Source: Tetracentron sinense (Eukaryota; Streptophyta; Magnoliopsida; Trochodendrales; Trochodendraceae). Taken from it: a DNA stretch of 64,000 nt. The position numbers were made by a program, and so were the translations under genes. Shown one piece after another: positions 3 to 41,395 of this stretch. The stretch covers positions 15,962,041-16,026,040 of the forward strand of contig CM026562.1 in the NCBI GenBank assembly GCA_015143295.1, written 5' to 3'. A model generated the notes under the pieces. It made no database searches. It saw only the letters and a program-made list of their open reading frames with translations, and was not told the origin of the DNA. Position 1 is the first letter of the stretch. Every line of letters starts with the position of its first letter.

Positions 3-404
3 CAGTTCTCTGGACATACACAGGTGCAGAGCCATTCTCTTACACCCCAGGCCCCTCGCCCTACTACTATGCAAGTTACTCGACAGGTTCTACCAGCATC
101 TTCTACATCTAAGTTCGGGTTTTGCAATTACTGTAAGAGGAAACACTTAGCTGGGGATTGTCGAGCTCTTACGGGAGCATGTTACCATTGCGGTGACACG
201 GGACACCGGATTAGAGCTTGTCCAAGCCGACGGTCACGCTCTCAAACCCAGGGGACTAGACTCCCAAATCGACTGCCTACGCAACCGGAATCACTCCAAG
301 CTTCGAGGCCCCAACAGCCCATACAGCCTCCACGTCAAACTAATGAGGGTCAAGTTTTTGCTATCTCAAGACAAGGTGCTCAGGCACCTAATGATGTTGC
401 ATGA
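3..404 (+). pseudogene. gag: Gag C-terminal part with two zinc knuckles (Ty3/gypsy, gag-only element)
   Basis: This is the 3' end of a Ty3/gypsy gag frame, open from the window edge to a TGA at 402-404. Two CCHC-type knuckles are visible: C-N-Y-C..H..C in CNYCKRKHLAGDC, which has the shortened C-x2-C-x3-H-x4-C spacing, and CYHCGDTGHRIRAC with the classical C-x2-C-x4-H-x4-C spacing. The same pair occurs in elements C and E. Gag coats and packages the genomic RNA. The tail ending in ..QAPNDVA aligns with the last gag residues before the gag-pol intron in element E (..LASDDVVQ). The sequence then stops matching, so pol is absent and the LTR follows about 300 bp later. The upstream capsid part lies outside the window. 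Confidence 0.85.
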
Positions 405-698
405 ATGCCAAGAGATAGAAATTTTGGTTGTCAAGGATGACTTACTGTTGTGTTTAACTATGTTGCGTACATGTATAACCATATTATGTTATGTTAAGGA
501 ACTTTCCTCATTTTTCGTGGGTGAGTAGTGACTTGAAAAGTCTAAGTGCCTTGCCAACAAGCAAGTGTCTGGTCTTGTGTCAATTGAGGGAAGATTCGTG
601 TGTCCTTAGTATAACTAGGTGACAGAGTGCAAGTTGTAGTGAGAGAGGTGCCCCCGCCTGATTAGGCATCATCCAAATTTCGAGGACGAAATTTTTGT
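405..698 (+). other. Non-coding remnant between gag and the polypurine tract
   Basis: About 290 bp separate gag from the polypurine tract. I see no protease, RT, RNase H or integrase motif on either strand, although a complete relative carries several kilobases of pol here. Only the last ~30 bp (from 672, ATTTCGAGGACGAAATTT) match the sequence preceding the PPT of elements A, B and D. This shows a large internal deletion, or replacement by unknown sequence. Confidence 0.7.
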
Positions 699-711
699 AA
701 GGGGGGGAGAA
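699..711 (+). promoter_or_regulatory. Polypurine tract (plus-strand primer)
   Basis: AAGGGGGGGAGAA directly precedes the TGTAGCACCC start of the LTR. The RNase H-resistant polypurine tract primes plus-strand DNA synthesis. Elements A, B and D have nearly the same tract in reverse complement next to their LTRs, which fixes the LTR boundary at 711/712 and the element's orientation as plus. Confidence 0.9.
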
Positions 712-923
712 TGTAGCACCCCGAACTTTTTCATCTTTAATGAATGGCACTCTCGTAGCTAATTGGCCGTTTTCGTAGTGTCATTAATAAATAAGGGAGA
801 AATCGGCAATTCCGAAACGTCAGAAAGGTTCGTTTTCGAAAGACGGATCCAACGCAAGTTGAATCGTCGAAATCCGACGAGCGAGTCAAAAGATATGGTC
901 AAAACATTCCAGACATACAGAGC

Positions 924-1108
924 ACCGATCGCTCGGTCCAGTCAGCGATCGATCGGTCCATAACCGATCGATCGGTAGCTATCGCACGGTCAGAAAATTT
1001 GTATGGGGAAATTTTCCAGAGAGTGAGTTTTTGACCGGTCGATCGGTCAATAACACCGATCGCTCGGTAGGCAACCGATCGATCGGTCATTAACACCGAT
1101 CGCTCGGT
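924..1108. repeat. U3 array of ~14-bp palindromes (ACCGATCGATCGGT type)
   Basis: Seven copies of ACCGATCG(A/C)TCGGT-like palindromes lie at about 924, 944, 963, 1034, 1055, 1073 and 1095. A spacer with a TTTGTATGGGGAAA core (near 1000) interrupts them, and a related spacer is also present in the LTRs of D and C. The array ends about 60 bp upstream of the TATA box, where an enhancer would sit. Dyad-symmetric sites in tandem suggest a dimeric DNA-binding protein; this is inference. Confidence 0.85.
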
Positions 1109-1170
1109 CTTCGCGTTTTTGCAGAAATTTCAGTAAGGGCTTTTTCGTCATTTGGGCATTTCACCCTTGC

Positions 1171-1178
1171 TTTATAAG
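1171..1178 (+). promoter_or_regulatory. Probable TATA box of LTR1
   Basis: TTTATAAG lies just upstream of the block GCACGAGCCTAAGGGTTTC. That block aligns with the 'GCCCGAGCCTTTAGGGCTC' block found immediately downstream of the TATA boxes of D and E. Conserved placement in three LTRs supports a core promoter, with transcription starting near 1200. Confidence 0.65.
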
Positions 1179-2110
1179 CCTTGCACGAGCCTAAGGGTTT
1201 CATAAACCCTTAGGGCAGATATTTGAGAGAGAGTGGGAGAGGAGAAAGGGGTTCTAACCTAGGGTTTCATCTTGAGAGTGAATCAAGGGTTTAAACACCC
1301 AAGATCATCCCAAAAAGGGCGTGGATTCATCAAATCCAACCTCAAACTCGTGTGGCATTCCCATTCCAAGCTAGGGCAGCGATCCTACGGCATTTTGAAA
1401 GGGGTTTCTTCCCCAAATCAAGCCTTCTTCAAGTAAGGGTTCTTCCCTACCATTTGAGGTTCGATTTCAAGGTTTCTTCAAGGTCAAGCCTTGATTTCAA
1501 GGTTAGTACACTCTACTAACTTCATTAGTGATAACCTTGATTTTTCTTCCTCAAATATGATGATTTTATATGTTGTTTGTCCCTTTTTATTGAGTTGTGA
1601 TGAAATCCCTATAATAAATAAGATAAATGGATAGAGATGTGGGAATGTGTGAATGGATGGTGGATTGTGGCGAATGGGTGCCGTGTGGGGTGATGTATGT
1701 AATGGGATGGATAATGGTGGAAGGGCATTTTCAACATAATGAACATACCTTTGTGATGGATGAAAAACATGCACTAAGCAACTTAAATAAAAAGGCTATC
1801 ATAGTGATGCTTACCAAGTGTTTGAGAAAATGTTTAAATGATGATTTAAATGAGTGAACTTGAATTATAAAAGCATGCATTGAGTTATTCTTTCTAAAAT
1901 GCCTATCTTGATCAAATGTGCTACATGTCATTTACATTTCCATATGCTCATATTAAGAATTGAAATGCTATGCTCATGTGACCATCATACTCAAGTATGT
2001 CCTCATGCCTACCACAATTTCTACACACACGCACGCATGCTTGCATGAACTGGGTTTATTTCACGAGTATTAGTGCATGAGAAATAAAACGAGAAACAAG
2101 CATATGTCAA

Positions 2111-2557
2111 GGAGGTTGGTAGCCCAGGGATGTGCGGGTGCTAGCCTCTGGCTCACAAGTTAAACGAACATGAATATCAAGGGTAGGGCATATCCCTAGG
2201 ATATGTCATACCTGGCTCACAAGAAAACACAACGAGCAAGGATCAAGAAACATGGAAGGGTGTTAGTGTACTAAGACCAGGTACGGGCACTAACATCTGT
2301 TCCCCAACACGCATGAAAGTATGCTAGTGTACTAAGACCAGGTACGGGCACTAGTGTATGTTTCCAAGACAAGCATGAAAGGATGTTAATGTACTAAGAC
2401 CAGGTACGGGCATTAACATCTGTTTCCAACAAGTATGAGAGGATACTAGTATACTAAGACCAGGTACGGGTACTAGTATCTGTCTCCAAGCGATAATCAA
2501 GAAATATGGAAGGGTGATGATGTACTAAGACCAGGTACGGGCATTGTCATCTGTTCC
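2111..2557 (+). repeat. Array of five (plus one divergent) hairpins with an invariant 19-nt loop and covarying stems
   Basis: Five units of about 61-71 bp carry the loop TACTAAGACCAGGTACGGG at 2269, 2330, 2392, 2452 and 2523. Each loop is enclosed by an 11-bp stem, then one bulged G on the 3' side, then 4 more pairs. The stem sequences differ between copies, yet every one of the 75 pairs is Watson-Crick or G-T. At least seven columns change on both sides. For example, the outer arm is GGAA/TTCC in units 1 and 5, GAAA/TTTC in 2 and 3, and GAGA/TCTC in 4. A divergent sixth unit at 2111-2149 also forms 11 pairs with a 17-nt loop ending CGGG. All wobbles are G-U in the element's sense RNA. It lies in the transcribed leader about 1 kb from the presumed start site. 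The function is unknown. Confidence 0.9.
2182..2212 (+). promoter_or_regulatory. Conserved leader hairpin (GCATATC..GATATG)
   Basis: GGTAGGGCATATCC and GGATATGTCATACC pair over 14 positions with one mismatch around a CTA loop. A homologous hairpin occurs beside the variable repeat slot in the A/B, D and E LTRs. It marks a fixed structural element of the leader. Confidence 0.7.
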
Positions 2558-2891
2558 CAGGCAAACAAGAAAACTCACGAGCAAGTCAACAAGAACATAC
2601 GCATAATACTCACTCACGAGACAAGAACCGGGCAAGAACCTAGTACGTCCGTCCAGTTCATAGTTCGGGTACTAGCTAAACCAGAACAAAACAAGGCAGG
2701 TGTGATTTCCACGATACGAGAACAAGTCATGACTTTTGGATACGAATTTACAATGCATGAGTTGATGTTCATGATTCACTTACGTGGTTATGTTGTTTTA
2801 GCTTCCGCGCTCTGAATTTGTATCTCTTGGGTGAACTGTATCATGTATTACATGTTATGCTGTTGTTATTACTATTGTTAGTTAGTAGCTT

Positions 2892-2923
2892 GTACTCGCT
2901 GAGTATTCCATGCTCAGCCGTAC
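2892..2923 (+). promoter_or_regulatory. Conserved leader hairpin (GCTGAG..CTCAGC) next to a possible splice acceptor
   Basis: GTAC-tc-GCTGAG, a 9-nt loop and CTCAGC-c-GTAC form an interrupted stem. The same structure is kept in A, B, D and E. It is followed by TTATGTCGGCAG|GT, which resembles a plant 3' splice site. In A, B, D and E a 38-39-codon ORF starts at this ATG; in LTR1 it is closed after 9 codons. Confidence 0.55.
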
Positions 2924-3305
2924 TTTTATGTCGGCAGGTACATTATGCAGCATATGAACTCTTGCCCCTTGGATCGAGGCAGCTCGGGGTGAGCAGGAGA
3001 TTCTTCGGATGGTTACCTAGATATTAGGAGACGTGGCATATGGCCAACGGTTGGGATGAGCGAGAGAGAGAGAGACATGTATTTTGGGTTTTTATTTCTA
3101 GGGATATTGCCTCACTTGAGTGGGTAACTCAGGTTAAGGATTTCTTGTATATGTTTTGGCTTATGTTCAGTTATTGTATACAGTTGTACTTGGGATACTG
3201 TTAAGTTATTAAAGAAAATTTCAATATACTCTTGCAGGATGGTTTTAAGTGTGAGTGACGTCGCCAAAGTCTCATCTCTCCTAGGTGGGATTTTGGGGCG
3301 TTACA

Positions 3306-3652
3306 CCAGAGGTTTTAAGCACATAAGAAAGAATGAGGCTCTTTCAGGCCTCCTCTTGCTGCTGAAAAGTCGTTGCTTGCACCTTCAAGCCTACCAGAAA
3401 CAAGCGAGGTATTCTCCTGTACTCGCTTAAGCAAGCGGTCCCTTTGAGTCCACTAGGAAGCCCCTACTGAACGGCTGCATTCAGAACCTTGCCTACTCTA
3501 ATTGTTCTAGCTAATGAACGGAGAGGAGAGTCAAGAATTCTTAGCCTGTATTAAATGATTGAAAGAAGTTCATACCTTATTCAATGATTTCCCTAGAACC
3601 ACCAGACATGCTGAGATGCCGATAAAACCTACTGAGATGAGAGTAGTTGGCC
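3306..3652. other. Non-satellite insert inside the satellite, copy 1 (interrupted by LTR1)
   Basis: About 350 bp here do not match the satellite and recur at 6481-6842 with modest divergence. I find no ORF of note, no terminal inverted repeats and no poly(A). Copy 1 begins at the equivalent of the fifth base of copy 2, exactly where LTR1 ends, so the gypsy element inserted into this segment. Identity unknown; a piece of organellar DNA is one possibility. Confidence 0.75.
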
Positions 3653-6480
3653 TAAAAGCGTGGGAATTTGTTTCGATGGAATCCAAGGTCGCTAGCTCGA
3701 TTTAGGGACCGAGAAGCCGAAATTCATACTTAGAAAGTAAACTTCCGCCTAAACACAAAAAAGCGCAGCAATTCGAAATCGGGGATCAGATATCGATGTC
3801 ATGTCTTCTAACACCTGTATTTCGACCAAAGCTGAATGTGGGAATTGGTTTCGATGCAATGCGAGGTCGTTTCTCCAATTTGGGCACCGAGAGGTTTGAC
3901 ATCCATACTTCAAAAGTATACTTCGGCCTAAACCTACATATGTGCACCAAATCAAAACCGAGGGTCAGATTTCGATGTCGTTTCTTCTAACGCATGTATT
4001 TCGACCAAACCTAAGTGTGGAAATTCGTTTCGATGGAATCCGAGATCGTTTGCCCGTTTTTGGCATCGAAAGGCTCAAAATCCGTACTTAGAAAGAAACC
4101 TTGGCCTAAACCTACAAACGTGCACAAAATCCAAACCCGTGATCGCATTTCGATGTCATTTCTCCTAACTCGTGTATTTTGATCCAACCTAAGTTTGGGA
4201 ATTCGTTTCGATAGAATCCGAGTTCGTTTGCCCGATTTTCGCACCGAGAGGCCGAAATCTATACTTAGAAAGTATACTTCGTCCTAAACCTAAAAAAGTG
4301 TACCACATCCAAACCGGGGGTCGGATTTCGATGCCGTTTCTTCTAACGCGTGTATTTCGACCCAATCTAACTGTGACAAATCGTTTTGATGGAATCCGAG
4401 TTCGTTTGCCCGATTTGGGCTCCGAGAGGCCGAAATCCATACTTAGAAAGTATACTTCGGTATAAACGTAAAAAAGCTTACCAATTCCTAATCAGGGGTC
4501 GGATTTTGATGCCGTTTCTTCTAACGCCAGTATTTCGACAAAACCTGAGTTTTGGAATTCGTTTTATTGGAATCCGAGTTCGTTTGCCCGATTTGGGCAC
4601 CGAGAGGCCCAAAATTCATGCGTACAAATTATACCTCGGCCTCAACCTAGAAACACGCACAAAATCCAAACCATTGATAAGATTTTGATGTCATTTCTTC
4701 TAACGCGTGTATTTTAATGCAACCTAAGTATGGGAATTTGTTACGACAAAATCCGAGGGCGTTTGCTTGATTTGGGAACTGAGAGGCCCGAAATTCATAA
4801 CTAGAAAGCATACTTCGGTCTAAACCTAAAACGCTGATTAAATCTAAACCTGTGATCGGATTTCGATGCCGATTCTTCTGAAGCGCGTATTTCGACCCAG
4901 CCATATTATGGGAACTAGTATCAATGGAATCTGGGGTCGTTTGCCCGATTTGGGCACTGAGACGCCTGAAATTCATATTTAGAAAGTCCACTTCGGCCAA
5001 AACCTACAAACACGCACCAAATCTAGACCTGTGATCGGATTTCGTTGTCATTTGTTCTAATGCCAGTATTTCGACCAAACCTGAGTGTGGGAATTCGTTT
5101 GGATGGAATGCCTGAAATTCATATTTAGAAAGTCTACTTCGGCTAAAACCTAAAAACGCGCACCAAATCTAAACCTGTGATTTGATTTCGATGTCATTTG
5201 TTCTAACGCCAGAATTTCGACCAAACCTGAGTGTGGGAATTCATTTGGATGGAATCAGAGGTCATTAGCCCGATTTGGGCACTGAGAGGCTCGAAATCCA
5301 TACTTAGAAATTATACATCGACCTAAACCTAAAAACGCGCACGAAATGCAAACAGGGGATCGGATTTCGATGTCGTACTTCTAACGTGTGTATTTTGACC
5401 CAAACTAAGTGTAGGAATTCGATTAAAGGGAATCCGTGGTCGTTTACCCGATTGGCGCACTGAGGAGCCGAAATCCATACTTAGAAAGTATACTTCGGCC
5501 TAAACATAAAAAAGCACTCCAATTCCGAACCGGAAGTCGGATTTTGAGGTTCCTTCTTCAAACGTACATATTTTGACCAAACCTATGTGTGGGAATTCGT
5601 TTCGATGGAATCCGAGGACGTTTGCCCGATTTGGCCATCGAGAGGCTCAAAATCCATACTTAGAAAGTATACTTCAGCCTAAAACAACGAACAAAGCGCA
5701 AGGAATCAAAAACCTGTGATCAGATTTCCATGTAATTTCATCTAACTCGTGTATTTCGATCCAACGTGAGTGTGAGAAGTCGTATCAATAGAATCCAAGG
5801 CCGTTTGCCCGATGTGCGCACCAAGTGGCTGACACTCAGGCTTACAAAGTATACTTCGTCCTAAACCTAAAAAAGTGCACCGCATCCAAACCGGGGGTCA
5901 GATTTTGATGCCGTTTCCTCTAATGCGTGTATCTCGACCCAACCTAAGTGTAAGAATTCGTTTCGATAGAATCCGAGTTCGTTTCCCCGATTGGGGCTCC
6001 GAGAGGCCCGAAATTCATACTTAGAAAGTAAACTTCGAACTAAACATACAAACGCGCACCAAATCCAAGCCTGTGATCAGATTTCGAAGTCATTTGTTCT
6101 AACTCGTGTATTTCAATCAAACCTGTGTAGGAATTCGTTTCGATAGTATACGAGGTTGTTTTCCCGATTTACGCACCGAGAGGCCGAAATCCATAGTTAG
6201 AAGGTATACTTCGGCCTAAAAGTAAAAAAGCGCACTAATTCCAAACTGGGGCTCGGATTTTGATGTCGGTTCTTTTAACGCCTATATTTCGACCAAACCT
6301 GAGTCTAGGAATTCGTTTGGATGGAATCCGAGGTCTTTTCCCTGATTTGGGTACTCAAAGACTCAAAATCCATATTTAGAAAGTATACTTCAGCCTAAAC
6401 CTACAAACGCGGCCCAAATTCAAATCGGGGCTCGGATTTCGAAGCCGTTTCTTCTAACGCTTGTATTTACACCAAACCTA
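3653..6480. repeat. ~179-bp satellite array, first 3.18-kb higher-order unit
   Basis: About 16 tandem monomers. Spacings between successive copies of the core AGAAAGTATACTTC at 4271, 4449, 4628, 4807, 4985, 5310, 5488 and 5667 are 178-179 bp apart from one short 146-bp monomer near 5131. Monomers are divergent and differ in diagnostic words, for example the CACCAATTCC, CACCAAATCC, CACCACATCC and GCAAGGAATC types. The same order of types returns in 6843-9360 at an offset near 3180 bp. Short ORFs exist in all frames because the period is not a multiple of three; none is a gene. Confidence 0.92.
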
Positions 6481-6842
6481 CGCTCCAAAGGTTTTGAGCA
6501 CTTAAGAAAGAATGAGGTAGTTTCAGGCCTCCTCCTCTTGATGCTGAAAAGTCGTTGCTTGAACCTTCAAGCCTACCACAAACAAGCAAGGTATTCTCCC
6601 GTACCTCCTTAAGCAAGGGGTCCCTTTGAGTCCACTAGGATGCCCCTACTGAACGGCTGCATTCAGAACCTCGCCTACTCTAATTGTTCTATCTAACGAA
6701 CGGAGAGAAGGGAAGTCAGGAAGCCCCTACTGTTCACCTACTCTAAATGACTGAACGAAGTTCATACCTTATTCAATGTTTTCCCTAGAACCACCAGACA
6801 TGCTGAGATGCCGATAAAACCTACTGAGATGAGAGTAGTTGG
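6481..6842. other. Non-satellite insert, copy 2 (~362 bp)
   Basis: Homologous to 3306-3652 and uninterrupted. It splits a monomer that is intact in the right-hand array (around 58030-58060, ACCAAACCTAAGCGTGGG). CCTA is present on both sides (6477-6480 and 6843-6846), which could be a 4-bp target duplication. No terminal repeats, poly(A) or coding potential are seen. It was amplified together with the surrounding satellite. Confidence 0.75.
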
Positions 6843-9360
6843 CCTAAAAGCGTGGGAATTCGTTTCGATGGAATCCAGGTTCGCTAGCTCGATTTGGGGA
6901 CCGAGAGGCCGAAATTCATACTTAGTATACTTCGGCTTAAATGCAAAAAAGCGCAGCAATTCGAAATCGGGGATCGAATATCGATGTCGTTTCTTCTAAC
7001 ACCTGTATTTCGACCAAACCTGAATGTGGGAATTGGTTTCGATGCATTGCGAGGTCGTTTCTCCGATTTGGGCACCGAGAGGTTTGACATCCATACTTCA
7101 AAAGTATACTTCGGCCTAAACCAACATATGTGCACCAAATCAAAACCGAGGGTCAGATTTCGATGTCGTTTCTTCTAACGCATGTATTTCGACCAAACCT
7201 AAGTGTGGGAATTCGTTTCGATGGAATCTGAGATCATTTGCCTGATTTTGGCATCGAGTGGCTAAAAATCCGTACATAGAAAGTAACCTCGGCCTAAACC
7301 TACAAACGCTTACAAAATCCAATCCCGTGATCGCATTTTGATGTCATTTCTCCTAACGCGTGTATTTCGATCCAACCTAAGTGTGGGAATTCGTTTCGAT
7401 AGAATCCGAGTTCGTTTGCCCGATTTCGCACCGAGAGGCCGAAATCTATACTTAGAAAGTATATTCGTCCTAAACCTAAAAAAGTGTACCACATCCAAAC
7501 CGGGGGTTAGATTTCGATGCCGTTTCTTCTAACGCGTGTATTTCGACCCAATCTAACTGTGATAAATCGTTTCGATGGAATCCGAGTTCGCTTGCCCGAT
7601 TTGGGCTCCGAGAGGCCGAAATCCATACTTAGAAAGTATAATTCGGTATAAACGTAAAAAAGCTTACCAATTCCTCATATGGGGTCGGATTTTGATGTCG
7701 TTTCTTCTAACGCCTGTATTTCGACCAAACTTGAGTGTTGGAATTCTTTTCATTGGAATCTGAGTTCGTTTGCCCGATTTGGGCACTGAGAGGCCCAAAA
7801 TTCATGCTTACAAATTACACCTCGGCCTCAACCTACAAACACGCACAAAATCCAAACCTGTGATAAGATTTCAATGTCATTTCTTCTAACACGTGTATTT
7901 CAATCCAACCTAAGTGTGGGAATTCGTTTCGACAGAATCCGAGGGCGTTTGCTTGATTTGGGAACCGAGAGGCCCAAAATTCATTACTAGAAAGCGTACT
8001 TCGGTCTAAACCTAAAACGCGCATTAAATCTAAACCTGTGATCGGATTTCGATGCCGATTCTTCTAAAGCGCGTATTTCGACCCAGCCTTAGTATGGGAA
8101 ATAGTATCAATGGAATCTGGGGTCGTTTGCCCGATTTGGGCACTGAGACGCCTGAAATTCATATTTAGAAAGTCCACTTCAGCCAAAACCTACAAACACG
8201 CACTAAATCTAGACCTGTGATCGGATTTCGTTGTCCTTTGTTCTAATGCCAGTATTTCGGCCAAACCTAAGTGTGGGAATTCATTTCGATGGAATGTCTG
8301 AAATTCATACTTAGAAAGTCTACTTCGGCTAAAACCTAAAAACGCGCCCCAAATCTAAACCTGTGATTGGATTTCGATGTCATTTGTTCTAACTCCAGTA
8401 TTTTGACCAAACCTGAGTGTGGGAATTCGTTTTGATGGAATCCGAGGTCGTAACCCCGACTTGGGCACTGAGAGGCTCTACTTAGAAATTATTCTTCGAC
8501 CGAAACCTAAAAATGGGCACCAAATGCAAACAGGTGGTCGGATTTCGATGTCGAACTTCTAACGTGTGTATTTCGACCCAAACTGAAAGTCGATTAGAAA
8601 GAATCCGTGGTCGTTTACCCGATTGGCGCACAGAGGAGCCGAAATCCATACTTAGAAAGTATACTTCCGCCTAAACGTAAAAAAGCACTCCAATTCCGAA
8701 CTGGGGGTCGGATTTCGATGTTCCTTCTTCAAACGCACATATTTCGACCAAACCTAGGTGTGGGAATTCGTTTCGATGGAATCCGAGGTCGTTTGCCCGA
8801 TTTTGCCATCGAGAGGCTCGAAATCCATACTTAGAAAGTATACTTCAGCCTAAAACAACGAACAATGCGCAAGGAATCAAAACCTGTGTTCAGATTTCGA
8901 TGTGATTTCTTCTAACACGTGTATTTTGATCCAACGTGAGTGCGAGAAGTGTTATCAATAGAATCGAAGGCCGTTTGCCCGATTTGCGCACCAAGAGGCT
9001 GACACTCAAGCTTAGAAAGTATACTTCGTCCTAAACCTAAAAAAGTGCACCACATCCAAACCGGGGGTCGGATTTTGATGCCGTTTCCTCTAATGCGTGT
9101 ATCTCGACCCTCCCTAAGTGTAAGAATTTGTTTCGATGGAATCCGAGTTCGTTTCCCCAATTGGGGCACCGAGAGGCCCGAAATTCATACTTAAAAAGTA
9201 AACTTCGGCCTAAACCTACAAACGCGCACCAAATCCAAGCCTATGATCAGATTTCGATTTTATTTGTTCTAACTCGTGTATTTCGATCAAACCTAAGTGT
9301 AGGAATTCATTTTGATAGAATACGAGGTCGTTTGCCCGATTTACGCACCGAGAGGCCCAA
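6843..9360. repeat. ~179-bp satellite array, second 3.18-kb higher-order unit (truncated by the gypsy nest)
   Basis: Monomer types follow the same order as in 3653-6170, including the short 146-bp monomer near 8290 and the GCAAGGAATC type near 8870. The array stops inside a monomer at GAGAGGCCCAAA. The satellite resumes beyond the nest at 29726 with CGCACCAAATCC, which is about 55 bp further along a monomer, so only a little satellite was lost on this side. Confidence 0.9.
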
Positions 9361-10160
9361 AGTGTAGGAACACGTTGTGCTGTGAATAGTGCCAAACACG
9401 TTGTGCTGTGTATAGTGTCGAACACGTTGTGCTGTGAATAGTGCCGAACACGTTGTGCTGTGAATAGTGTCGAACACGTTGTGCTGTGAATAGTGCCGAA
9501 CACGTTGTGCTGTGAATAGTGTCGAACACGTTGTGCTGTGAATAGTGCCGAACACGTTGTGCTGTGAATAGTGCCGAACACGTTGTGCTGTGAATAGTGC
9601 CAAACACGTTGTGCTGTGAATAGTGCCGAACACGTTGTGCTGAACTCGTTGTCCGTTGTGTTGTGCATAGTGCTGAGCTCATTGTCCGTTGTCTTATGTA
9701 CAACGTGCCCATCGTGAGCTGTACAACGTACACGTTGTCTACTGCACGACGTATCCGTTGTCTGTTGCACAACGGATGCACAACGTATACGTTATCAGAG
9801 CTAGAGCTACGTTATCAGAGTACGTTGTCTATGCGTTGTCTGTGCCTTATCAGAGCACGTTGTCAGAGCTACGTCCTTAGTGCCTTCCGAGCTACGTCCT
9901 TAGTGCCTCTCCAGAGCTCGTCCTCAAGTGCATAACCGAGCGATCGATTTCCTGCAGGTCCAGACTATTTTGGCCATATCTTTTGACTCGTTCGTCCGAT
10001 TTTGACGATTCAACTTGCGTTGGGTTCGTACTTCGAAAATGAACATTTCTGACCTTTTGAAATTTCCAATTTCTTCCTTATTTATTAATTATACATCTTT
10101 AAAGGCAAAATGGCAACGAAAGTGTCATGCATTAAATGTGAAAAGGTCCGGGGCTCTACA
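9361..10160 (-). mobile_element. Truncated 3' LTR of element A
   Basis: Reading on the minus strand, the LTR starts TGTAGAGCCC at 10160 next to the PPT and matches the complete LTR at 12669-15515 almost base for base. It breaks off inside the minisatellite near 9366 and abuts satellite DNA. Only about 800 of 2847 bp remain, so the TATA-equivalent region, leader and 3' terminus are lost, together with the left flank that would have shown a target duplication. Confidence 0.88.
9366..9643. repeat. 26-bp minisatellite in the U3 of LTR A, 11 copies
   Basis: Eleven tandem copies of a 26-bp unit containing CACGTTGTGCTGTGAATAG. Copies vary at GCCGAA / GCCAAA / GTCGAA. Compared with the middle LTR this array has one extra GTC/GCC pair of units. 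Reading frames stay open in all three minus-strand phases because the unit has no stop in any of them. This is an artefact of the repeat and not a protein. Confidence 0.95.
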
Positions 10161-10174
10161 TCCTCCCCCCCTTA
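10161..10174 (-). promoter_or_regulatory. Polypurine tract of element A
   Basis: TAAGGGGGGGAGGA on the minus strand directly precedes the LTR start TGTAGAGCCC. It is preceded by the same AAATTTCGAGGACGAAATTT context as in LTR1. Confidence 0.9.
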
Positions 10175-10262
10175 CAAAAATTTCGTCCTCGAAATTTAGA
10201 CGCTACTTGCATTAACAAACCAAAAAGAAAATTACAAGTCATATACAAACTTATACAAAAAC

Positions 10263-11040
10263 TCATTCAATTAATTCTGGGTACTTTGCTTTGACTTCGG
10301 CTTCACGCTCCCATGCAGCTTCTTCCCGAGCATGGTGTTGCCATTGCACTAGAACCAAAGGGATAGTCTTGTTGCGAAGAACTTGATCTCTTCGATCCAA
10401 AATCTGAACCGGCTTTTCAATCAAAGTGAGGTCCTCTCGAATCTCCAACGGTTCCAAGTCTATAACATGCGAAGGATCCGCAATGTACTTCCGAAGCATA
10501 GACACATGGAAGACGTTGTGAACTGCGGTCATGTGAGGTGGGAGAGCTACCCTGTAAGCAACCTCACCAACTCGCGTGATAATCTCAAAAGGCCCAACAT
10601 ACCGAGGACTGGGCTTGCCTCGCTTGCCAAATCTCATGATCCCTTTGCTAGGAGATACTTTCACAAAGACTCGATCCCCTACTTGAAATTCCAAGTCCCT
10701 ACGGCGCGTGTCCGCATAACTTTTCTGGCGATCGTGAGCGGCTTTCAATCGATCCCGAATGATCTTAACTGTGCCTGCAGTTTGCTCAATCAACTCCGGA
10801 CCAAGTACTTTCCTTTCTCCTACCTCATCCCAATAGAGAGGAGACCTACAACTTCGCCCATACAAGGCCTCAAATGGTGCCATTTGGATACTCGCCTGAT
10901 AGCTGTTATTATAGGCGAATTCAACCAAAGGCAAGTGCTCTTCCCAACTGCCTCTGAAATCCAACATACAAGCCCGAAGCATGTCTTCAATGACTTGGTT
11001 CACTCTCTCGGTTTGTCCATCCGTCTGTGGATGAAAAGCG
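10263..11040 (-). pseudogene. pol: Integrase C-terminal part with GPY/F module and chromodomain (element A)
   Basis: The frame begins right after the deletion junction with [14 protein letters not shown], which carries the Glu of the integrase DDE triad. It continues through the C-terminal domain, with the GPY/F signature YVGPFEIITRVGEVAYRV, and ends with a chromodomain-like segment (PVQILDRRD..LVLVQWQHH..ATWERE type, here EEAAWERE). This domain order marks the chromovirus Tekay/Del-like group. Chromodomains direct integration to modified chromatin. The zinc-binding HHCC region and the first two Asp residues of the catalytic core are missing, so no active integrase can be made. The segment is out of frame with the RT part across the junction. 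Confidence 0.92.
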
Positions 11041-12333
11041 GTGCTGCAAGGCTAGAGAAACCCTCCACGAATCTCCTGTAGTAGCCTGCCAACCCAAGAA
11101 AGCTGCGTATCTCGGTAACACTCTTGGGCCTCGCCCAACTCATAATTGCTTCGATCTTCTTTGGATCTACCGAGATACCTTCTGCAGAAACAACGTGGCC
11201 TAGGAATGCCACCTCTTCCAACCAAAACTCACACTTGCTAAGTTTGGCGTATAGCTTGTGCTCTCTTAGCATTTCCAAAGCAAGGCATAGGTCGCGTGTG
11301 TGATCTTCCCGTGTCTGGGAATAGACTAAAATGTCATCAACGAATACAATCACGCACCTATCAAGATATGGCCGGAACACCCGGTTCATCAAATCCATAA
11401 AGGCTGCCGGCGCGTTCGTGAGTCCAAAAGGCATCACCAAGAACTCGTAGTGTCCATACCGAGTCCTGAAAGCAGTTTTGGGAACATCTTCCACCTTAAT
11501 CTTCAACTGGTGATAACCCGATCGAAGGTCTATCTTCGAGAAAAATCTCGCTCCCTTCAACTGATCGAACAAGTCATCAATCCTAGGCAAGGGATACCTA
11601 TTCTTTATAGTGACTTTGTTCAATTGCCTGTAATCGACGCACATCCGCATCGAGCCATCTTTCTTCTTAACAAACAACACCGGGGCACCCCACGGTGAGA
11701 CACTTGGTCGAATGAAACCAAGACCTTGTAATTCTTCCAACTGGGTCTTTAACTCTTTGAGTTCAATAGGGGCCATTCTATACGGAGCCCTGAAAACAGG
11801 AGCTGTGCCTGGTGCAAGCTCGATCACAAACTCAATCTCCCTGTCTGGAGGCAATCCTGGCAACTCCTCTGGAAATACATCCAGGAACTCACTCACAACC
11901 GGAATAGTCGATGAGTCCTTTGCCTCGGGGTTAGCTAAGCTCAACGCCACAAAACGAGCAATATATCTACTTTTCAACCCTCGAAAGTGGAATGGTTTTC
12001 CTTCTACTGGCTTGAAGAGTGCCATTTTCTCAAAGCAAGCTAGATGCCCATGATGTGCTGCTAAGCAATCCATTCCCAATATAACATCAAAGTCTTGGAA
12101 TCCAAGGACGATGAGATCAACCGCCAACTCGTGGCTTCCAACTTGGACCACACAATTTCTGTACACTTTATCTGCCAATACTGTTTTGTCGAGAGGAGTC
12201 GAAATGGCTAACTCCGGTTCTAGCTGACTTGGCTCTACAGAAAAGCCTTCTGAAAAACTCGGCGAGACAAATGAATGAGTAGACCCGGTATCAATCAACA
12301 CTCGAGCCAAATACTTATTGACTAGTAGGGTTC
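11041..12333 (-). pseudogene. pol: Protease - reverse transcriptase fragment (element A)
   Basis: Translation from the conserved 3' splice site (12334) gives a retropepsin with the active-site motif DTGSTHSF and the flap-side ILGMD. In this copy the following Trp is Cys (GMDCL). The RT follows with [27 protein letters not shown] and the catalytic FVDDILVYS. The frame runs cleanly to ..[16 protein letters not shown] and then crosses the deletion junction at about 11040, stopping 13 codons later. RNase H and the integrase N-terminus and core are deleted. The 30 codons that precede the splice site are read-through of intron sequence and not protein. Confidence 0.92.
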
Positions 12334-12652
12334 CTGAAATTTTAACCAGCGGAGTTAATCCATGCATCAACAGTGTATACATGTAGGTATATATACATAT
12401 ATAACATGCCAAGTACGTACACAATCAATTAATACTTAACAGTTTAATTTACGGATAATTAAATAAGCTACAACTGCGTTCCTAGGACCGTACTTGGTTA
12501 GAGCAACCATTTTAGACTAAGACTAAAGTTTAGTCTTAAACTTGGAACCAGACTCGTTCCCGACTCACTTCCTTCCTAACTTGTTTCCTAACATATGCTC
12601 TTGTCAAGCCGTGGTATAAGATTCTAAGTGACCCTAGAGACCTAAAGCCTAA
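12334..12652 (-). other. Leader and intron remnant of element A, gag deleted
   Basis: On the minus strand this holds the 5' untranslated leader after the primer site, joined to the 3' part of the gag-pol intron ending AAAATTTCAG. The leader part matches 39340-39520 of element E. The intron part matches 37785-37870. The ~1.2-kb gag exon and the 5' splice site that lie between these in E are gone. Confidence 0.8.
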
Positions 12653-12664
12653 GCTTTGATACCA
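12653..12664 (-). promoter_or_regulatory. Primer-binding site of element A (tRNA-iMet)
   Basis: TGGTATCAAAGC on the minus strand lies four bases (GAAG) after the LTR end CGCGACA. It matches the complement of the plant initiator tRNA-Met 3' end (TGGTATCAGAGC) at 11 of 12 positions. Confidence 0.88.
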
Positions 12665-12967
12665 CTTCTGTCGCGGCCCAAAACCCACCCTAGGAGTTAG
12701 AGTGAACTTTGGACGACTAATCATTGCTTACATGACTTGCTTGACAAACCAACCTGCAAAAACGCACAGAGCATATACAATAGAGGATGACAGCGGAAAC
12801 ATAACTATAAAACACAGCGGAAGTCTAACAACCTCTAAGTATATACACATGGTCCAAGTTTAATACAAAGAAATCAAAACAAAGAAAGTGCGGACATGCC
12901 CGCCAAAATACATGGATATAATCACTCATGCTCACCCACAGCTAACCCACTCAGAATCTAACACCAC

Positions 12968-13087
12968 CTACTGATAACCCTCTACGGGAGGTTCCTCAAA
13001 AGGCTCCTCGACGTACTCCTCCTCCACCCATGGACCAGGAGCACAAACATCAAATGGAGCAGCAGCTCCCTCAGAACCTGCCGACAT
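12968..13087 (-). CDS. Small acidic ORF in the LTR leader (39 aa), conserved in four LTRs
   Basis: An ATG in the CTTATGTCGGCAGGT block opens a 39-codon frame that begins MSAGSEGAAAPF and has a very acidic centre (VEEEYVEEPFEEP). The frame is also open in the LTRs of B, D and E. It begins beside the GCTGAG/CTCAGC hairpin and a possible splice acceptor. C has a related acidic frame without an ATG at the same place. Caution: the few differences seen between copies (Val/Ala, Ala/Gly, Phe/Leu, Gln/stop) all change the protein, so there is no sign of selection on it. Whether it is translated is unknown. Confidence 0.35.
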   Translation of the reverse strand: MSAGSEGAAAPFDVCAPGPWVEEEYVEEPFEEPPVEGYQ

Positions 13088-13426
13088 AAGAAGTACGGCT
13101 GAGCATGGAATACTCAGCGGGTACTAAATACTAACCAACAGTCATAGTATACAGATAGCATACATCGAGTAGGAAGCAAGTTGCATATATAGAACAGGAA
13201 CAATTTATATCATACAAGGAAGTAAAGCAATTTATATTCACGCTTGCGTTCAGAAAGACTGATAAAGCCCTTGAAAACATCGTGCACTTGACTTGACTTG
13301 AAATACCCTTTGCGTGATTGGGAACTTGTTAACCGTGTCATGCTTTCATCATGCGTGTCATGTCATGTCATGCGTGTCATGCGAGTATCATGCTTGCTTG
13401 TTCATAATTTAAACATGTTCACATGC

Positions 13427-13620
13427 CTAGTTGCCGTTCATAGCCTGTCGCAACCAGTACCCTGTACACTGAATGATATGCCTAGTTGCCGTTCATAGTC
13501 CGTCGCAACTAGTACCCTATATACAGATGGGTATGCCTGGTTGCCGTTCATAGCCCGTCGCAACTAGCATCCATGCAGAATGTGAATGCCTAGTTGCCGT
13601 TCATAGCCCGTCGCAACTAG
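13427..13620. repeat. Four tandem inverted repeats CTAGTTGC..GCAACTAG in the leader slot
   Basis: Four units at 13427, 13482, 13537 and 13590 have an 8-bp stem (CTAGTTGC/GCAACTAG) and a 15-nt loop (CGTTCATAGCCCGTC type). This slot corresponds in position to the hairpin array of LTR1 but has unrelated sequence. One stem has a pair that is G-U in sense and one has a pair that is A-C, so strand polarity is not informative here. Confidence 0.85.
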
Positions 13621-13792
13621 CATCCATGCGTGTCATGCCATGCAGAGTTATGCGAGTCATGTGATGCTATGCTATGCGTGTCATGCCATGCTATGCTATG
13701 CGTGTCATGCGATGCTATGCATGTCATGCGAGGGGATGGGAGACCTTTCCCTATGCAATGCATGATTGTCTTGCCCTTGTCAAAAGCGAAGT

Positions 13793-13816
13793 GAAACATA
13801 TCTTAGGATATGCCCC
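13793..13816 (-). promoter_or_regulatory. Conserved leader hairpin (GGGGCATATC..GATATGTTTC)
   Basis: On the minus (sense) strand GGGGCATATC and GATATGTTTC form ten pairs, three of them G-U, around a CTAA loop. On the opposite strand the three would be A-C. Homologous to 2182-2212. Confidence 0.7.
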
Positions 13817-14670
13817 ACCTCTACGTCCCATACTTAAAACATCGGTAAATCACGTCATTTCATGCGTGCTCGTGAGATCGTGTGCATACTTGCATTTGGA
13901 ATTAAATATGGCAATTTGGGGTAATTCACAAAGCATAGCATATAACAATTTAAGTGAGTAATAATCTACACATTTTAAGAAATGTAAGAAACACACTATC
14001 ATGAACCCTAACAAATTTCAAGAGCAATTAAGCATGGGTTCCCTTAATTTATCATTTATTTTGTTCACCTTGGCATTTCATCAAACATGGGGTGTGTTCA
14101 TTATTCACTTAAACCTAGATCATGCTTTCCTAGGTGGGTTATGCTCCCATCACACTTGTATGTTCATTATTAGTACAATGCCCTTTCCCATTCGTTCATC
14201 ACATCGTCCACACGGCATCCATTCGCCAACATCCATCTCTCCATTCACCATTCATACTACCAATCTCATAACACATATATAAGTGAAGGAAAACAAGGAG
14301 AAACAAAGGAAAAAGGGAAGCTATAACTAGGAGGGTAGTAAGAAGTACCGACCTTGAAGAAATGAGGAAGAACCCCTTCCAAAAACGACCGTGAGGTGCT
14401 GCCCTAGCTTGGGGAACGCTCTCCACGAGTGCTTGAGCCGTGATCTTGGAGAAAAACCGGACTTGAAGTGATCTAGGGTCTCAAAACCCCTTTGATTCTT
14501 CTCCAAAAGCAAAACCCTAGCTTAGGAAACCCTTTCTCATCTCTTCTAATCCCCCAAATCCTCTAAGTGTTGAGAATGAGCCCTAAAGGCTCGGGTTAAA
14601 CTCTTAAGGTAAGAGTGAACCGACCAAAAGACCATAATACCCTTACTGAAATTTCTGCAAAAACACGAGT

Positions 14671-14974
14671 GCCGAACACGTTGAGCTGTGAATAGTGCCA
14701 AACACGTTGTGCTGTGAATAGTGCCGAACACGTTGTGCTGTGAACAGTGCTGAACACGTTGTGCTGTGAATAGTGCCAAACACGTTGTGCTGTGTATAGT
14801 GTCGAACACGTTGTGCTGTGAATAGTGCCGAACACGTTGTGCTGTGAATAGTGTCGAACACGTTGTGCTGTGAATAGTGCCGAACACGTTGTGCTGTGAA
14901 TAGTGCCGAACACGTTGTGCTGTGAATAGTGCCAAACACGTTGTGCTGTGAATAGTGCCGAACACGTTGTGCTG
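14671..14974. repeat. 26-bp minisatellite in the shared A/B LTR, 12 copies
   Basis: Twelve copies of the CACGTTGTGCTGTGAATAG-containing unit, occupying the place that CGATCGATCG palindromes occupy in LTR1, C, D and E. Next to it (14975-15230) lie shorter, degenerate ACAACGT / ACGTTGT inverted repeats. Confidence 0.95.
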
Positions 14975-15515
14975 AACTCGTTGTCCGTTGTGTTGTGCAT
15001 AGTGCTGAGCTCATTGTCCGTTGTCTTATGTACAACGTGCCCGTCGTGAGCTGTACAACGTACACGTCGTGAGCTGTACAACGTACACGTTGTCTGCTGC
15101 ACGACGTATCCGTTGTCTGTTGCACAACGGATGCACAACGTATACGTTATCAGAGCTAGAGCTACGTTATCAGAGTACGTTGTCTATGCGTTGTCTGTGC
15201 CTTATCAGAGCACGTTATCAGAGCTACGTCCTTAGTGCCTTCCGAGCTACGTCCTTAGTGCCTCTCCAGAGCTCGTCCTCAAGTGCATAACCGAGCGATC
15301 GATTTCCTGCAGGTCCAGACTGTTTTGGCCATATCTTTTGACTCGTTCGTCCGATTTTGACGATTCAACTTGCGTTGGGTTCGTACTTCGAAAATGAACA
15401 TTTCTGACGTTTTGAAATTTCCAATTTCTTCCTTATTTATTAATTATACCTCTTTAAAGGCAAAATGGCAACGAAAGTGTCATGCATTAAATGTGAAAAG
15501 GTCCGGGGCTCTACA

Positions 15516-15529
15516 TCCTCCCCCCCTTA
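15516..15529 (-). promoter_or_regulatory. Polypurine tract of element B
   Basis: Identical to the tract at 10161-10174 and adjacent to the LTR start at 15515. Confidence 0.9.
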
Positions 15530-15617
15530 CAAAAATTTCGTCCTCGAAATTTAGACGCTACTTGCATTAACAAACCAAAAAGAAAATTACAAGTCATATA
15601 CAAACTTATACAAAAAC

Positions 15618-16395
15618 TCATTCAATTAATTCTGGGTACTTTGCTTTGACTTCGGCTTCACGCTCCCATGCAGCTTCTTCCCGAGCATGGTGTTGCCATT
15701 GCACTAGAACCAAAGGGATAGTCTTGTTGCGAAGCACTTGATCTCTTCGATCCAAAATCTGAACCGGCTTTTCAATCAAGGTGAGGTCCTCTCGAATCTC
15801 CAACGGTTCCAAGTCTATAACATGCGAAGGATCCGCAATGTACTTCCGAAGCATAGACACATGGAAGACGTTGTGAACTGCGGTCATGTGAGGTGGGAGA
15901 GCTACCCTGTAAGCAACCTCACCAACTCGCGTGATAATCTCAAAAGGCCCAACATACCGAGGACTGGGCTTGCCTCGCTTGCCAAATCTCATGATCCCTT
16001 TGCTAGGAGATACTTTCACAAAGACTCGATCCCCTACTTGAAATTCCAAGTCCCTACGGCGCGTGTCCGCATAACTTTTCTGGCGATCGTGAGCGGCTTT
16101 CAATCGATCCCGAATGATCTTAACTGTGCCTGCAGTTTGCTCAATCAACTCCGGACCAAGTACTTTCCTTTCTCCTACCTCATCCCAATAGAGAGGAGAC
16201 CTACAACTTCGCCCATACAAGGCCTCAAATGGTGCCATTTGGATACTCGCCTGATAGCTGTTATTATAGGCGAATTCAACCAAAGGCAAGTGCTCTTCCC
16301 AACTGCCTCTGAAATCCAACATACAAGCCCGAAGCATGTCTTCAATGACTTGGTTCACTCTCTCGGTTTGTCCATCCGTCTGTGGATGAAAAGCG
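15618..16395 (-). pseudogene. pol: Integrase C-terminal part with GPY/F module and chromodomain (element B)
   Basis: Practically identical to the element A segment 5355 bp to the left; its translation is the same over the 246 codons downstream of the GTG. It carries the same truncated start at [14 protein letters not shown], the same GPY/F module and the same chromodomain tail. The identical deletion junction shows that A and B descend from one already deleted element. Confidence 0.92.
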
Positions 16396-17688
16396 GTGCT
16401 GCAAGGCTAGAGAAACCCTCCACGAATCTCCTGTAGTAGCCTGCCAACCCAAGAAAGCTGCGTATCTCGGTAACACTCTTGGGCCTCGCCCAACTCATAA
16501 TTGCTTCGATCTTCTTTGGATCTACCGAGATACCTTCTGCAGAAACAACGTGGCCTAGGAATGCCACCTCTTCCAACCAAAACTCACACTTGCTAAGTTT
16601 GGCGTATAGCTTGTGCTCTCTTAGCATTTCCAAAGCAAGGCATAGGTCGCGTGTGTGATCTTCCCGTGTCTGGGAATAGACTAAAATGTCATCAACGAAT
16701 ACAATCACGCACCTATCAAGATATGGCCGGAACACCCGGTTCATCAAATCCATAAAGGCTGCCGGCGCGTTCGTGAGTCCAAAAGGCATCACCAAGAACT
16801 CGTAGTGTCCATACCGAGTCCTGAAAGCAGTTTTGGGAACATCTTCCACCTTAATCTTCAACTGGTGATAACCCGATCGAAGGTCTATCTTCGAGAAAAA
16901 TCTCGCTCCCTTCAACTGATCGAACAAGTCATCAATCCTAGGCAAGGGATACCTATTCTTTATAGTGACTTTGTTCAATTGCCTGTAATCGACGCACATC
17001 CGCATCGAGCCATCTTTCTTCTTAACAAACAACACCGGGGCACCCCACGGTGAGACACTTGGTCGAATGAAACCAAGACCTTGTAATTCTTCCAACTGGG
17101 TCTTTAACTCTTTGAGTTCAATAGGGGCCATTCTATACGGAGCCCTGAAAACAGGAGCTGTGCCTGGTGCAAGCTCGATCACAAACTCAATCTCCCTGTC
17201 TGGAGGCAATCCTGGCAACTCCTCTGGAAATACATCCAGGAACTCACTCACAACCGGAATAGTCGATGAGTCCTTTGCCTCGGGGTTAGCTAAGCTCAAC
17301 GCCACAAAACGAGCAATATATCTACTTTTCAACCCTCGAAAGTGGAATGGTTTTCCTTCTACTGGCTTGAAGAGTGCCATTTTCTCAAAGCAAGCTAGAT
17401 GCCCATGATGTGCTGCTAACCAATCCATTCCCAATATAACATCAAAGTCTTGGAATCCAAGGACGATGAGATCAACCGCCAACTCGTGGCTTCCAACTTG
17501 GACCACACAATTTCTGTACACTTTATCTGCCAATACTGTTTTGCCGAGAGGAGTCGAAATGGCTAACTCCGGTTCTAGCTGACTTGGCTCTACAGAAAAG
17601 CCTTCTGAAAAACTCGGCGAGACAAATGAATGAGTAGACCCGGTATCAATCAACACTCGAGCCAAATACTTATTGACTAGTAGGGTTC
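16396..17688 (-). pseudogene. pol: Protease - reverse transcriptase fragment (element B)
   Basis: Same structure as element A: DTGSTHSF protease site, [19 protein letters not shown], then the out-of-frame junction with integrase. It differs from A at two residues, both in the protease region: Gly instead of Asp after STPL, and Trp in GMDWL where A has Cys. B keeps the family residue in both, so A carries the newer changes. Confidence 0.92.
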
Positions 17689-18023
17689 CTGAAATTTTAA
17701 CCAGCGGAGTTAATCCATGCATCAACAGTGTATACATGTAGGTATATATACATATATAACATGCCAAGTACGTACACAATCAATTAATACTTAACAGTTT
17801 AATTTACGGATAATTAAATAAGCTACAACTGCGTTCCTAGGACCGTACTTGGTTAGAGCAACCATTTTAGACTAAGACTAAAGTTTAGTCTTAAACTTGG
17901 AACCAGACTCGTTCCCGACTCACTTCCTTCCTAACTTGTTTCCTAACATATGCTCTTGTCAAGCCGTGGTATAAGATTCTAAGTGACCCTAGAGACCTAA
18001 AGCCTAAGCTTTGATACCACTTC
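17689..18023 (-). other. Leader, intron remnant and primer site of element B (gag deleted)
   Basis: Copy of 12334-12668. The 3' splice site ends the intron remnant at 17689. The primer-binding site TGGTATCAAAGC lies at 18008-18019, four bases from the LTR. No gag sequence is present. Confidence 0.85.
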
Positions 18024-18322
18024 TGTCGCGGCCCAAAACCCACCCTAGGAGTTAGAGTGAACTTTGGACGACTAATCATTGCTTACATGACTTGCTTGAC
18101 AAACCAACCTGCAAAAACGCACAGAGCATATACAATAGAGGATGACAGCGGAAACATAACTATAAAACACAGCGGAAGTCTAACAACCTCTAAGTATATA
18201 CACATGGTCCAAGTTTAATACAAAGAAATCAAAACAAAGAAAGTGCGGACATGCCCGCCAAAATACATGGATATAATCACTCATGCTCACCCACAGCTAA
18301 TCCACTCAGAATCTAACACCAC

Positions 18323-18442
18323 CTACTGATAACCCTCTACGGGAGGTTCCTCAAAAGGCTCCTCGACGTACTCCTCCTCCGCCCATGGACCAGGAGCACA
18401 AACATCAAATGGAGCAGCAGCTCCCTCAGAACCTGCCGACAT
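18323..18442 (-). CDS. Small acidic LTR ORF (39 aa), copy in element B LTR
   Basis: Same frame as 12968-13087, with one visible substitution that turns Val to Ala in the VEEEY segment. Start context and stop are conserved. Evidence for translation is lacking. Confidence 0.3.
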   Translation of the reverse strand: MSAGSEGAAAPFDVCAPGPWAEEEYVEEPFEEPPVEGYQ

Positions 18443-18790
18443 AAGAAGTACGGCTGAGCATGGAATACTCAGCGGGTACTAAATACTAACCAACAGTCAT
18501 AGTATACAGATAGCATACATCGAGTAGGAAGCAAGTTGCATATATAGAACAGGAACAATTTATATCATACAAGGAAGTAAAGCAATTTATATTCACGCAT
18601 GCGTTCAGAAAGACTGATAAAGCCCTTGAAAACATCGTGCACTTGACTTGACTTGAAATACCCTTTGCGTGATTGGGAACTTGTTAACCGTGTCATGCTT
18701 GTCATGCTCTCATCATGCGTGCCATGTCATGTCATGCGCGTCATGCAAGTATCATGCTTGCTTGTTCATAATTTAAACATGTTCACATGC

Positions 18791-18984
18791 CTAGTTGCCG
18801 TTCATAGCCCATCGCAACTAGTACCCTGTACACTGAATGATATGCCTAGTTGCCGTTCATAGTCCGTCGCAACTAGTACCCTATATGCAGATGGGTATGC
18901 CTGATTGCCGTTCATAGCCCGTCGCAACTAGCATCCATGCGGAATGTGAATGCCTAGTTGCCGTTCATAGCCCGTCGCAACTAG
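18791..18984. repeat. Leader inverted-repeat array in LTR B (four units)
   Basis: Counterpart of 13427-13620. The third unit has drifted to CTGATTGC, which weakens its stem. The related leader hairpin lies at 19157-19180. Confidence 0.8.
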
Positions 18985-20035: not shown

Positions 20036-20260
20036 GCCGAACACGATGAGCTGTGAATAGTGCCAAACACGTTGTGCTGTGAATAGTGCCGAACACGTTG
20101 TGCTGTGAATAGTGCCGAACACGTTGTGCTGTGAATAGTGCTGAACACGTTGTGCTGTGAATAGTGCCAAACACGTTGTGCTGTGAATAGTGCCGAACAC
20201 GTTGTGCTGTGAATAGTGCCAAACACGTTGTGCTGTGAATAGTGCCGAACACGTTGTGCT
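20036..20260. repeat. 26-bp minisatellite in LTR B, nine copies
   Basis: Nine copies of the same 26-bp unit as at 9366 and 14671. It lacks the GTCGAA variants seen in the other two arrays, so the copy number and order of units have changed since the LTRs separated. Confidence 0.95.
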
Positions 20261-41347: not shown

Positions 41348-41395
41348 TAGTGAAGAAACCCTAAAAATCCGATTAAAATTTCTGGATTCGCGATC

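Follow-up and report, generated by a model that had tools for sequence, protein, structure and literature searches.

As far as the accessible portions of the two reports go, Gag chooses the unspliced RNA through leader structures in both HIV-1 (PMC7395439) and MMTV (PMC8096270), and the Gag-binding loop of MMTV is also carried by the spliced RNA, where it is hidden by refolding. The hairpin array described here resembles the MMTV SL4 purine loop and the HIV-1 core encapsidation signal, as these are presented there, in being a leader structure of a reverse-transcribing element's genomic RNA, and would, by our proposal, also share with them the selection of unspliced RNA and Gag as a partner. 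By comparison, each of the MMTV and HIV-1 signals forms one domain that surrounds the dimer site and the splice donor, whereas the array consists of one hairpin repeated five times, with a long invariant loop, inside a candidate intron. For Ty3, the available text describes a palindromic dimerization hairpin near the 5' end of the RNA and states that the packaging sequences are not precisely defined (PMC11381356). The leader RNA of yeast Ty3 shares the superfamily and the RNA end with the array; by contrast, no tandem identical hairpins are described in that text, and the loop of the array did not act as a kissing site in the shuffle test given below.

Dispersed packaging signals of RNA viruses are, in the accessible excerpt (PMC6281560), several motifs with one coat-protein recognition motif, as in the array, but they are spread along the genome, whereas the units of the array are clustered and have identical loops. 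Large plant elements outside the chromoviruses combine long LTRs with tandem arrays in non-coding regions, as found here; unlike the array, these tandem repeats are not described in terms of pairing or covariation in the sections available (PMC6317226). In BARE, a copia-type element, translated and packaged RNAs are kept apart, and conserved dimerization and packaging signals are mentioned in the accessible part of the report (PMC3735527). Neither leader introns nor hairpins come up in the available passages on LORE1 (PMC2832683) and Retrosat2 (PMC3485330). In the open-access literature searched, part of it in excerpt, we recognized no report of such a hairpin array and, for plant Ty3-type elements, met no packaging hairpin that has been defined. 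The marking of genomic RNA for packaging in plant LTR retrotransposons seems poorly known, and a compact hairpin repeated with an unchanging loop provides a concrete packaging candidate that is easily tested in vitro.

Tandem hairpins in the LTR of a Ty3-type element

The window, that is, the whole stretch of 64,000 nucleotides of DNA that was analyzed, holds the array in a long LTR (LTR A) of an element referred to as element A. The following features define the carrier and the array:

123..221, + strand: Gag C terminus carrying two zinc-knuckle-like motifs (CX2CX3HX4C and CX2CX4HX4C), candidate RNA-binding partner
712..3305, + strand: LTR A, 3' LTR of a Ty3-type element, TG...CA, about 2.6 kb, with TGTAGCACCCC from 712 and GGGGCGTTACA ending at 3305
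1173..1177, + strand: TATA-box-like TATAA, a sequence reading
2254..2303, + strand: hairpin unit 1 (fold, pairing count, covariation)
2315..2364, + strand: hairpin unit 2 (fold, pairing count, covariation)
2377..2426, + strand: hairpin unit 3 (fold, pairing count, covariation)
2437..2486, + strand: hairpin unit 4 (fold, pairing count, covariation)
2508..2557, + strand: hairpin unit 5 (fold, pairing count, covariation)

LTR A is directly preceded by a polypurine tract and by AATTTCGAGGACGAAATTT (676-694), the latter common to other elements, and its transcription would start about 30 nt 3' of the TATAA. The Gag frame of element A stops at 402-404, with the polypurine tract within 300 bases and with pol absent there (1-711); these 300 bases are too short to leave room for pol, and element A may be Gag-only or internally deleted. 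Membership of the plant Ty3/gypsy chromoviruses, Tekay-like, was judged by an integrase C-terminal chromodomain together with Ty3-type PR-RT-RH. Because element A has no pol between the Gag end and the polypurine tract, it was classed through LTR homology; protease, reverse transcriptase, RNase H and a sub-cut-off chromodomain match are encoded by other elements in the window. In the related element B, SH3_Tf2-1, RVT_1 and RVP_2 scored above the cut-off and Chromo reached 21.9 bits, below its cut-off of 25.1, and the RNase H match sits in another element of the window, not in element B. Among the best 120 of 7966 matches in a protein search with the PR-RT of element B, the named entries with an organism came from land plants, except for two bacterial ones that are probably contamination. 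Three stretches of the viral contigs collection fitted the pattern for a relative of this PR-RT, and none of them was confirmed. Taken by its sequence features, the array appears to be carried by a plant Ty3-type, chromovirus-like element in its 3' LTR, and the 5' LTR of that element lies beyond the window.

Elsewhere in the window, a satellite of roughly 178 bp forms long arrays in blocks adjoining and between the retrotransposons (3656-9361, 29725-31075 and 42272-63990), and LINE-like genes with DUF4283, endonuclease and reverse transcriptase domains occupy 31104-35167 on the plus strand.

The array spans 2254-2557 with a unit spacing of 60-71 nt, and each unit consists of a 50-nt core with 15 stem pairs, an invariant 19-nt loop (TACTAAGACCAGGTACGGG) and one constant bulged G in the 3' arm. 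A search allowing up to three mismatches found the loop in five exact copies in the 64-kb window, all on the + strand (starting at 2269, 2330, 2392, 2452 and 2523), as compared with a mean of 0.02 matches in 100 shuffles. The earlier note had claimed, from hand alignment, five such hairpins with 75 paired cells and a bulged G, at least seven columns varying on both sides, and eleven wobbles that are all G-U in the plus-strand RNA. Our recount agrees with these counts. Standard pairs occupy 75/75 cells (64 Watson-Crick, 11 G-U, no A-C and no other combination), and the 15 pair columns divide into seven that change on both sides, four that change on one side only, all via G-U, and four that are invariant. 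Moving the bulge to any of 15 other positions left at least five cells unpaired each time. Furthermore, RNA folding of each unit with its flanks returned the same hairpin in 5/5 units, and the alignment fold of the five units contains three extra loop-side pairs that never vary.

Two additional hairpins flank the array:

2111..2149, + strand: divergent sixth hairpin, loop with CCAGG...CGGG
2640..2676, + strand: doubtful seventh hairpin, very divergent, loop CCAG...CGGG, stem CTAGTAC/GTACTAG, repeat family D4

The sixth unit had been proposed as a divergent member of the series. Its folding is borne out (z -2.36 for 2105-2155), while its kinship to the five units is marginal: scanned against the 1.8-kb leader, the covariance model gave it 9.2 bits (E 0.12), and antisense matches of the units themselves score 9.8 and 8.6 bits, so the sixth unit does no better. 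In the whole-window search with default filters, the five-unit model retrieved those five units and one chance match, and the sixth unit was missing from its matches. The hairpin at 2640-2676 (z -1.59 alone) adopts another fold when placed in a longer stretch and gave no match to the covariance model in either the window or the leader. An Rfam search of 500-3600 at E <= 1 listed three matches, none inside the array and all far below gathering scores, and the exact pattern of a loop 18-mer had no occurrence in the viral contigs collection or in the genome contigs collection.

Covariation of the stems and chance controls

None of 500 column shuffles reached the observed value for cells paired, both-sided pairs, both-sided cells or the covariation score, and only the measure of further pair types was reached commonly (165/500). 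With the 3' arm displaced by one, two or three columns, 36-51% of cells were paired, as compared with 100% in register. In 20,000 simulation runs that started from the majority consensus and applied the same number of arm substitutions with no pairing constraint, a mean of 61.2 pairs and a maximum of 71 were kept, and no run kept all 75. Variable columns account for 18 of the 50 columns of the core, with nine in each arm and none among the 19 of the loop; random placement would leave the loop free of variation with a chance of 1.1e-5.

The 11 wobble cells occupy only six columns, and in one of these every unit has G-U. Counted by independent columns, the preference for G-U over A-C therefore has a chance of about 1/64, not 1/2048, or 1/32 if the fixed column is left out. 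The strand bias reported in the earlier note is thus real as a count but carries less weight than eleven separate wobbles would suggest.

The main non-RNA explanation holds that template switching or gene conversion, such as quasi-palindrome correction in reverse transcription, keeps the units alike as DNA palindromes, with no selection on RNA. In such correction, one arm can serve as the template for the other, and the outcome resembles compensatory change; a tandem repeat region would also be prone to conversion. However, such copying should erase the bulged G, yet all five units have it, and should leave A-C and G-U pairs in equal numbers, whereas G-U occurs in six columns and A-C in none, an imbalance (about 1/64 to 1/32) that is not overwhelming. 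In addition, the invariant and non-palindromic 19-nt loop is left unexplained. Both the bulge, constant throughout, and the lack of any A-C pair oppose this explanation, and we consider it unlikely.

The sense strands form the full hairpin in 5/5 units with energies of -13.9 to -18.1 kcal/mol, and the antisense folds are weaker in 5/5 units (-5.4 to -13.8 kcal/mol). As evidence for the array, folding energy is not exceptional: the per-unit z-scores range from -0.55 to -2.23, and those of the whole array are -0.92 in sense and +1.53 in antisense. Compensatory change beyond chance, together with a wobble bias toward the sense strand, the features by which a structured RNA was to be recognized, was found on one copy with five units. 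The observation is therefore confirmed, and its case lies in covariation inside one LTR copy, with unexceptional folding energy. The five units of this LTR A copy may also share a recent history. Within that scope, the covariation and the stronger sense folds give good support to a selected RNA structure on the + strand over a DNA palindrome.

A separate set of tandem palindromic ACCGATCGATCGGT-like motifs lies near the start of LTR A (924-1109) and reaches z down to -6.8 in sense and -5.0 in antisense. Since these motifs fold on both strands, they point to a symmetric DNA-level feature, unlike the hairpin array; GATCGATCG-bearing repeats, as at 924-1109, are also present at 26100-26150 and 41394-41562.

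The candidate leader intron and the slot in sister LTRs

BLAST and motif searches identified four LTRs with a homologous leader, all on the minus strand (B1, B2, C and D). Comparison of the five LTRs delineates the following features in LTR A, with a slash at the putative splice points:

1502..2937, + strand: candidate leader intron, 1436 nt, containing the whole array, AAG/GTTAGT ... GTCGGCAG/GT
2181..2213, + strand: hairpin H2, bordering the slot upstream, found in 5/5 homologous LTRs
2892..2923, + strand: conserved hairpin around CTGAGTATTCCATGCTCAG, just 5' of the acceptor-like site, with CTGAGTATTCCATGCTCAGCCGTACTT identical in 5/5 LTRs

The donor-like sequence is AAG/GTTAGT in A, AAG/GTCGGT in B1, B2 and C, and CGG/GTCGGT in D, and its GT and the block that follows align in 5/5 LTRs. 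On the acceptor side, GTCGGCAGGT and GTCGGCAG/GT are identical in 5/5 LTRs, giving candidate introns of 1.07-1.44 kb. These splice-like signals suggest an intron that holds the array, a proposal reasoned from sequence. The earlier note had placed the array in an LTR leader; its position agrees, but the same signals suggest that it belongs to a removable segment of that leader.

The candidate intron of LTR A contains 63 ATGs, as compared with none in the 300 nt before the donor. Across the five LTRs, the candidate introns contain 56-71 ATGs, and in none of them did any of 200 dinucleotide shuffles reach the observed number. The 300 nt before the donor contain 0-2; dinucleotide shuffles give no significance to this scarcity (0.08 to 0.93), and 9-10 ATGs are still present in the 367-409 nt of LTR after the acceptor. 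The G+C content of the candidate introns lies 3-7 points below that of the flanks, and their T content, near or between those of the flanks, is not clearly raised.

Several minor observations concern the same segments. GCATG is over-represented in the candidate introns of A, B1, B2, C and D (7-18, as compared with shuffle means of 1.9-3.9), although the highest of the 200 shuffles for LTR C also reaches 7. The region around the candidate donor (1434-1553) folds better than shuffles on either strand (z -4.45 in sense and -4.06 in antisense), by way of repeated TTCAAGG/CCTTGA motifs noticed by eye. In LTR B1, a short acidic open frame ending in TAG, noticed by eye, follows GTCGGCAG/GT (13075-12968, minus strand), and a second acceptor-like TTTTTGCAG/GT occurs about 85 nt from the LTR end.

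Hairpin H2 and the downstream CTGAGTATTCCATGCTCAGCCGTACTT and TATGTCGGCAGGT are common to the five LTRs, and LTR A 1760-2863 has no BLAST match to the other LTRs. In H2, 96.6% of cells are paired (four distinct rows) and one pair is changed on both sides; 248/500 column shuffles do as well, and H2 was therefore set aside as evidence of covariation. In the hairpin at 2892-2923, the inner stem folds in 5/5 LTRs and the outer GTAC/GTAC stem in 4/5, A being the exception. The exact pattern of a 25-mer from this acceptor-side hairpin gave no match in the viral contigs collection, and a 19-mer from it matched two bacterial records in the genome contigs collection; their best similarity to two LTR pieces (19 and 23 nt) hardly extends beyond the 19-mer, and they were dismissed as chance.

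Between the shared H2 and the shared acceptor-side hairpin, the slot of the four homologous LTRs holds other repeats. The B1 and B2 slots contain four units each, with the loop GACGGGCTATGAACG or a loop one base off, and the C and D slots contain three and four copies, respectively, of GAAGGG-TYT-CCCTTC. None of the eight B units, which have an 8-bp stem, shows a both-sided change; an A-C pair breaks the stem in two of them (one also with G-U), a third has G-U, and the loop is changed in 4/8. The seven C and D stems are invariant and thus give no information on compensation. Upon folding, one of the four B1 units is strong (z -4.80), and the others range from -0.92 to -2.31. A sixth LTR (E) has slot repeats of its own, two of three of which fold poorly.

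LTR E (29400-27093, minus strand) is more distant, with 49-nt slot repeats, a short hairpin GAGTACTTTTGTACTC before the acceptor-like CTTGGCAG/GT, and an insertion-like stretch, judged by eye, at about 28180-28000. The stretch 9362-20805 contains three family B LTRs, one of them shortened, with two internal regions between them in the order LTR-internal-LTR-internal-LTR; the listed ORFs of the two regions have equal lengths and lie 5355 bases apart, and the LTR copies are 94.9-96.1% identical.

Possible roles of the array

Stem pairing in the array is kept via compensatory change, and the loop, the bulged G and the adjacent G-U are fixed, a pattern that would reflect selection. A fixed loop, a fixed bulge with its G-U, and stems that are free to change but stay paired have the look of protein binding, which suggests docking sites; a protein-binding site is our best guess for the array. 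Five loop-plus-bulge docking points in a row could bind a protein multivalently, as the repetition of the hairpin suggests, and the likeliest ligand would be the element's own Gag, with its two zinc-knuckle-like motifs. As the array lies between donor-like and acceptor-like sites shared by five LTRs, splicing would remove it from the translated RNA and leave it on full-length RNA alone, and Gag binding could mark the unspliced genomic RNA for packaging. We infer that the array forms tandem RNA hairpins in the sense transcript, kept by selection, that act as a multivalent Gag-binding packaging signal of unspliced RNA, and we assign this reading a probability of about 0.38. Its presumed loss on splicing makes packaging by Gag our first choice, although the analogy with MMTV does not demand such a loss, given that the MMTV loop is in the spliced RNA too and is hidden there by refolding. 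The ATG surplus of the candidate introns speaks in its favor. The sister slots count against the packaging reading, for they hold different repeats without compensatory change; so do the T content of the candidate intron, the non-significant ATG scarcity ahead of the donor, the ATGs that persist beyond the acceptor, the unexceptional folding energy and the restriction to one LTR copy.

Nuclear export or splicing control comes second. Here, the hairpins would recruit a host factor, through which intron-keeping RNA is exported or intron retention is regulated. The location in a candidate intron, with an acceptor-like site adjoining the conserved hairpin, suits such a role, the covariation is fitted equally well, and RTE and MTE elements are described in a review as exporting full-length retroelement RNA (PMC12786077). 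However, the analysis yielded no pointer to a host factor. One would also expect sister families to have such a site in common, yet their loops are not the same. We regard an export or splicing element as possible but doubtful.

Extending the packaging reading, a removable leader intron of plant chromovirus-like LTRs might contain a modular slot in which family-specific hairpin arrays, each with many copies of one docking hairpin, barcode the unspliced RNA for the family's own Gag, with swaps changing the specificity. This elaboration is speculative, and we hold it to be somewhat less probable than an export or splicing element. If sister families truly swap arrays in one slot, they would provide a natural system for the coevolution of RNA signals and their reader proteins.

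The conserved loop had also been taken as a possible kissing site. It contains the near-palindrome ACCAGGU, and its CCAGGU could pair with the T arm of initiator tRNA-Met, so that dimerization or capture of the primer tRNA might be envisaged. The self-duplex of the loop reaches -7.6 kcal/mol, a value equalled or bettered by 67% of shuffled loops, which speaks against kissing; the loop-tRNA duplex (-13.4 kcal/mol) is matched by 31% of shuffled loops and by 34% of dinucleotide shuffles. Pairing of the loop with three other stretches of the element was rejected likewise (14%, 80% and 71% of shuffles as good), as was pairing of the B loop with initiator tRNA-Met (25-31%). Dimerization or tRNA capture by the loop is the least probable of the roles considered.

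A translation element is improbable as well, if less so than loop kissing, and slightly less probable than the DNA palindromes discussed above. In this reading, ribosomes would stall or shunt at mini-ORFs (ATG, 2-3 codons, stop), one of which starts at the foot of every hairpin. The mini-ORF at unit 1 is as follows:

2252..2266, + strand: mini-ORF, ATG, three codons and stop, overlapping the 5' arm of unit 1

Its counterparts start at 2313, 2375, 2435 and 2506, the last being one codon shorter. The ATG is invariant at the base of the five stems, with its G forming the first stem base, and the stop of the short ORF falls inside the 5' arm in 5/5 units. With 63 ATGs in the 1436-nt segment, however, the five ATGs of the array are not special. 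In caulimovirus shunts, the short ORF stops before the stem, whereas in the array the stop lies within it.
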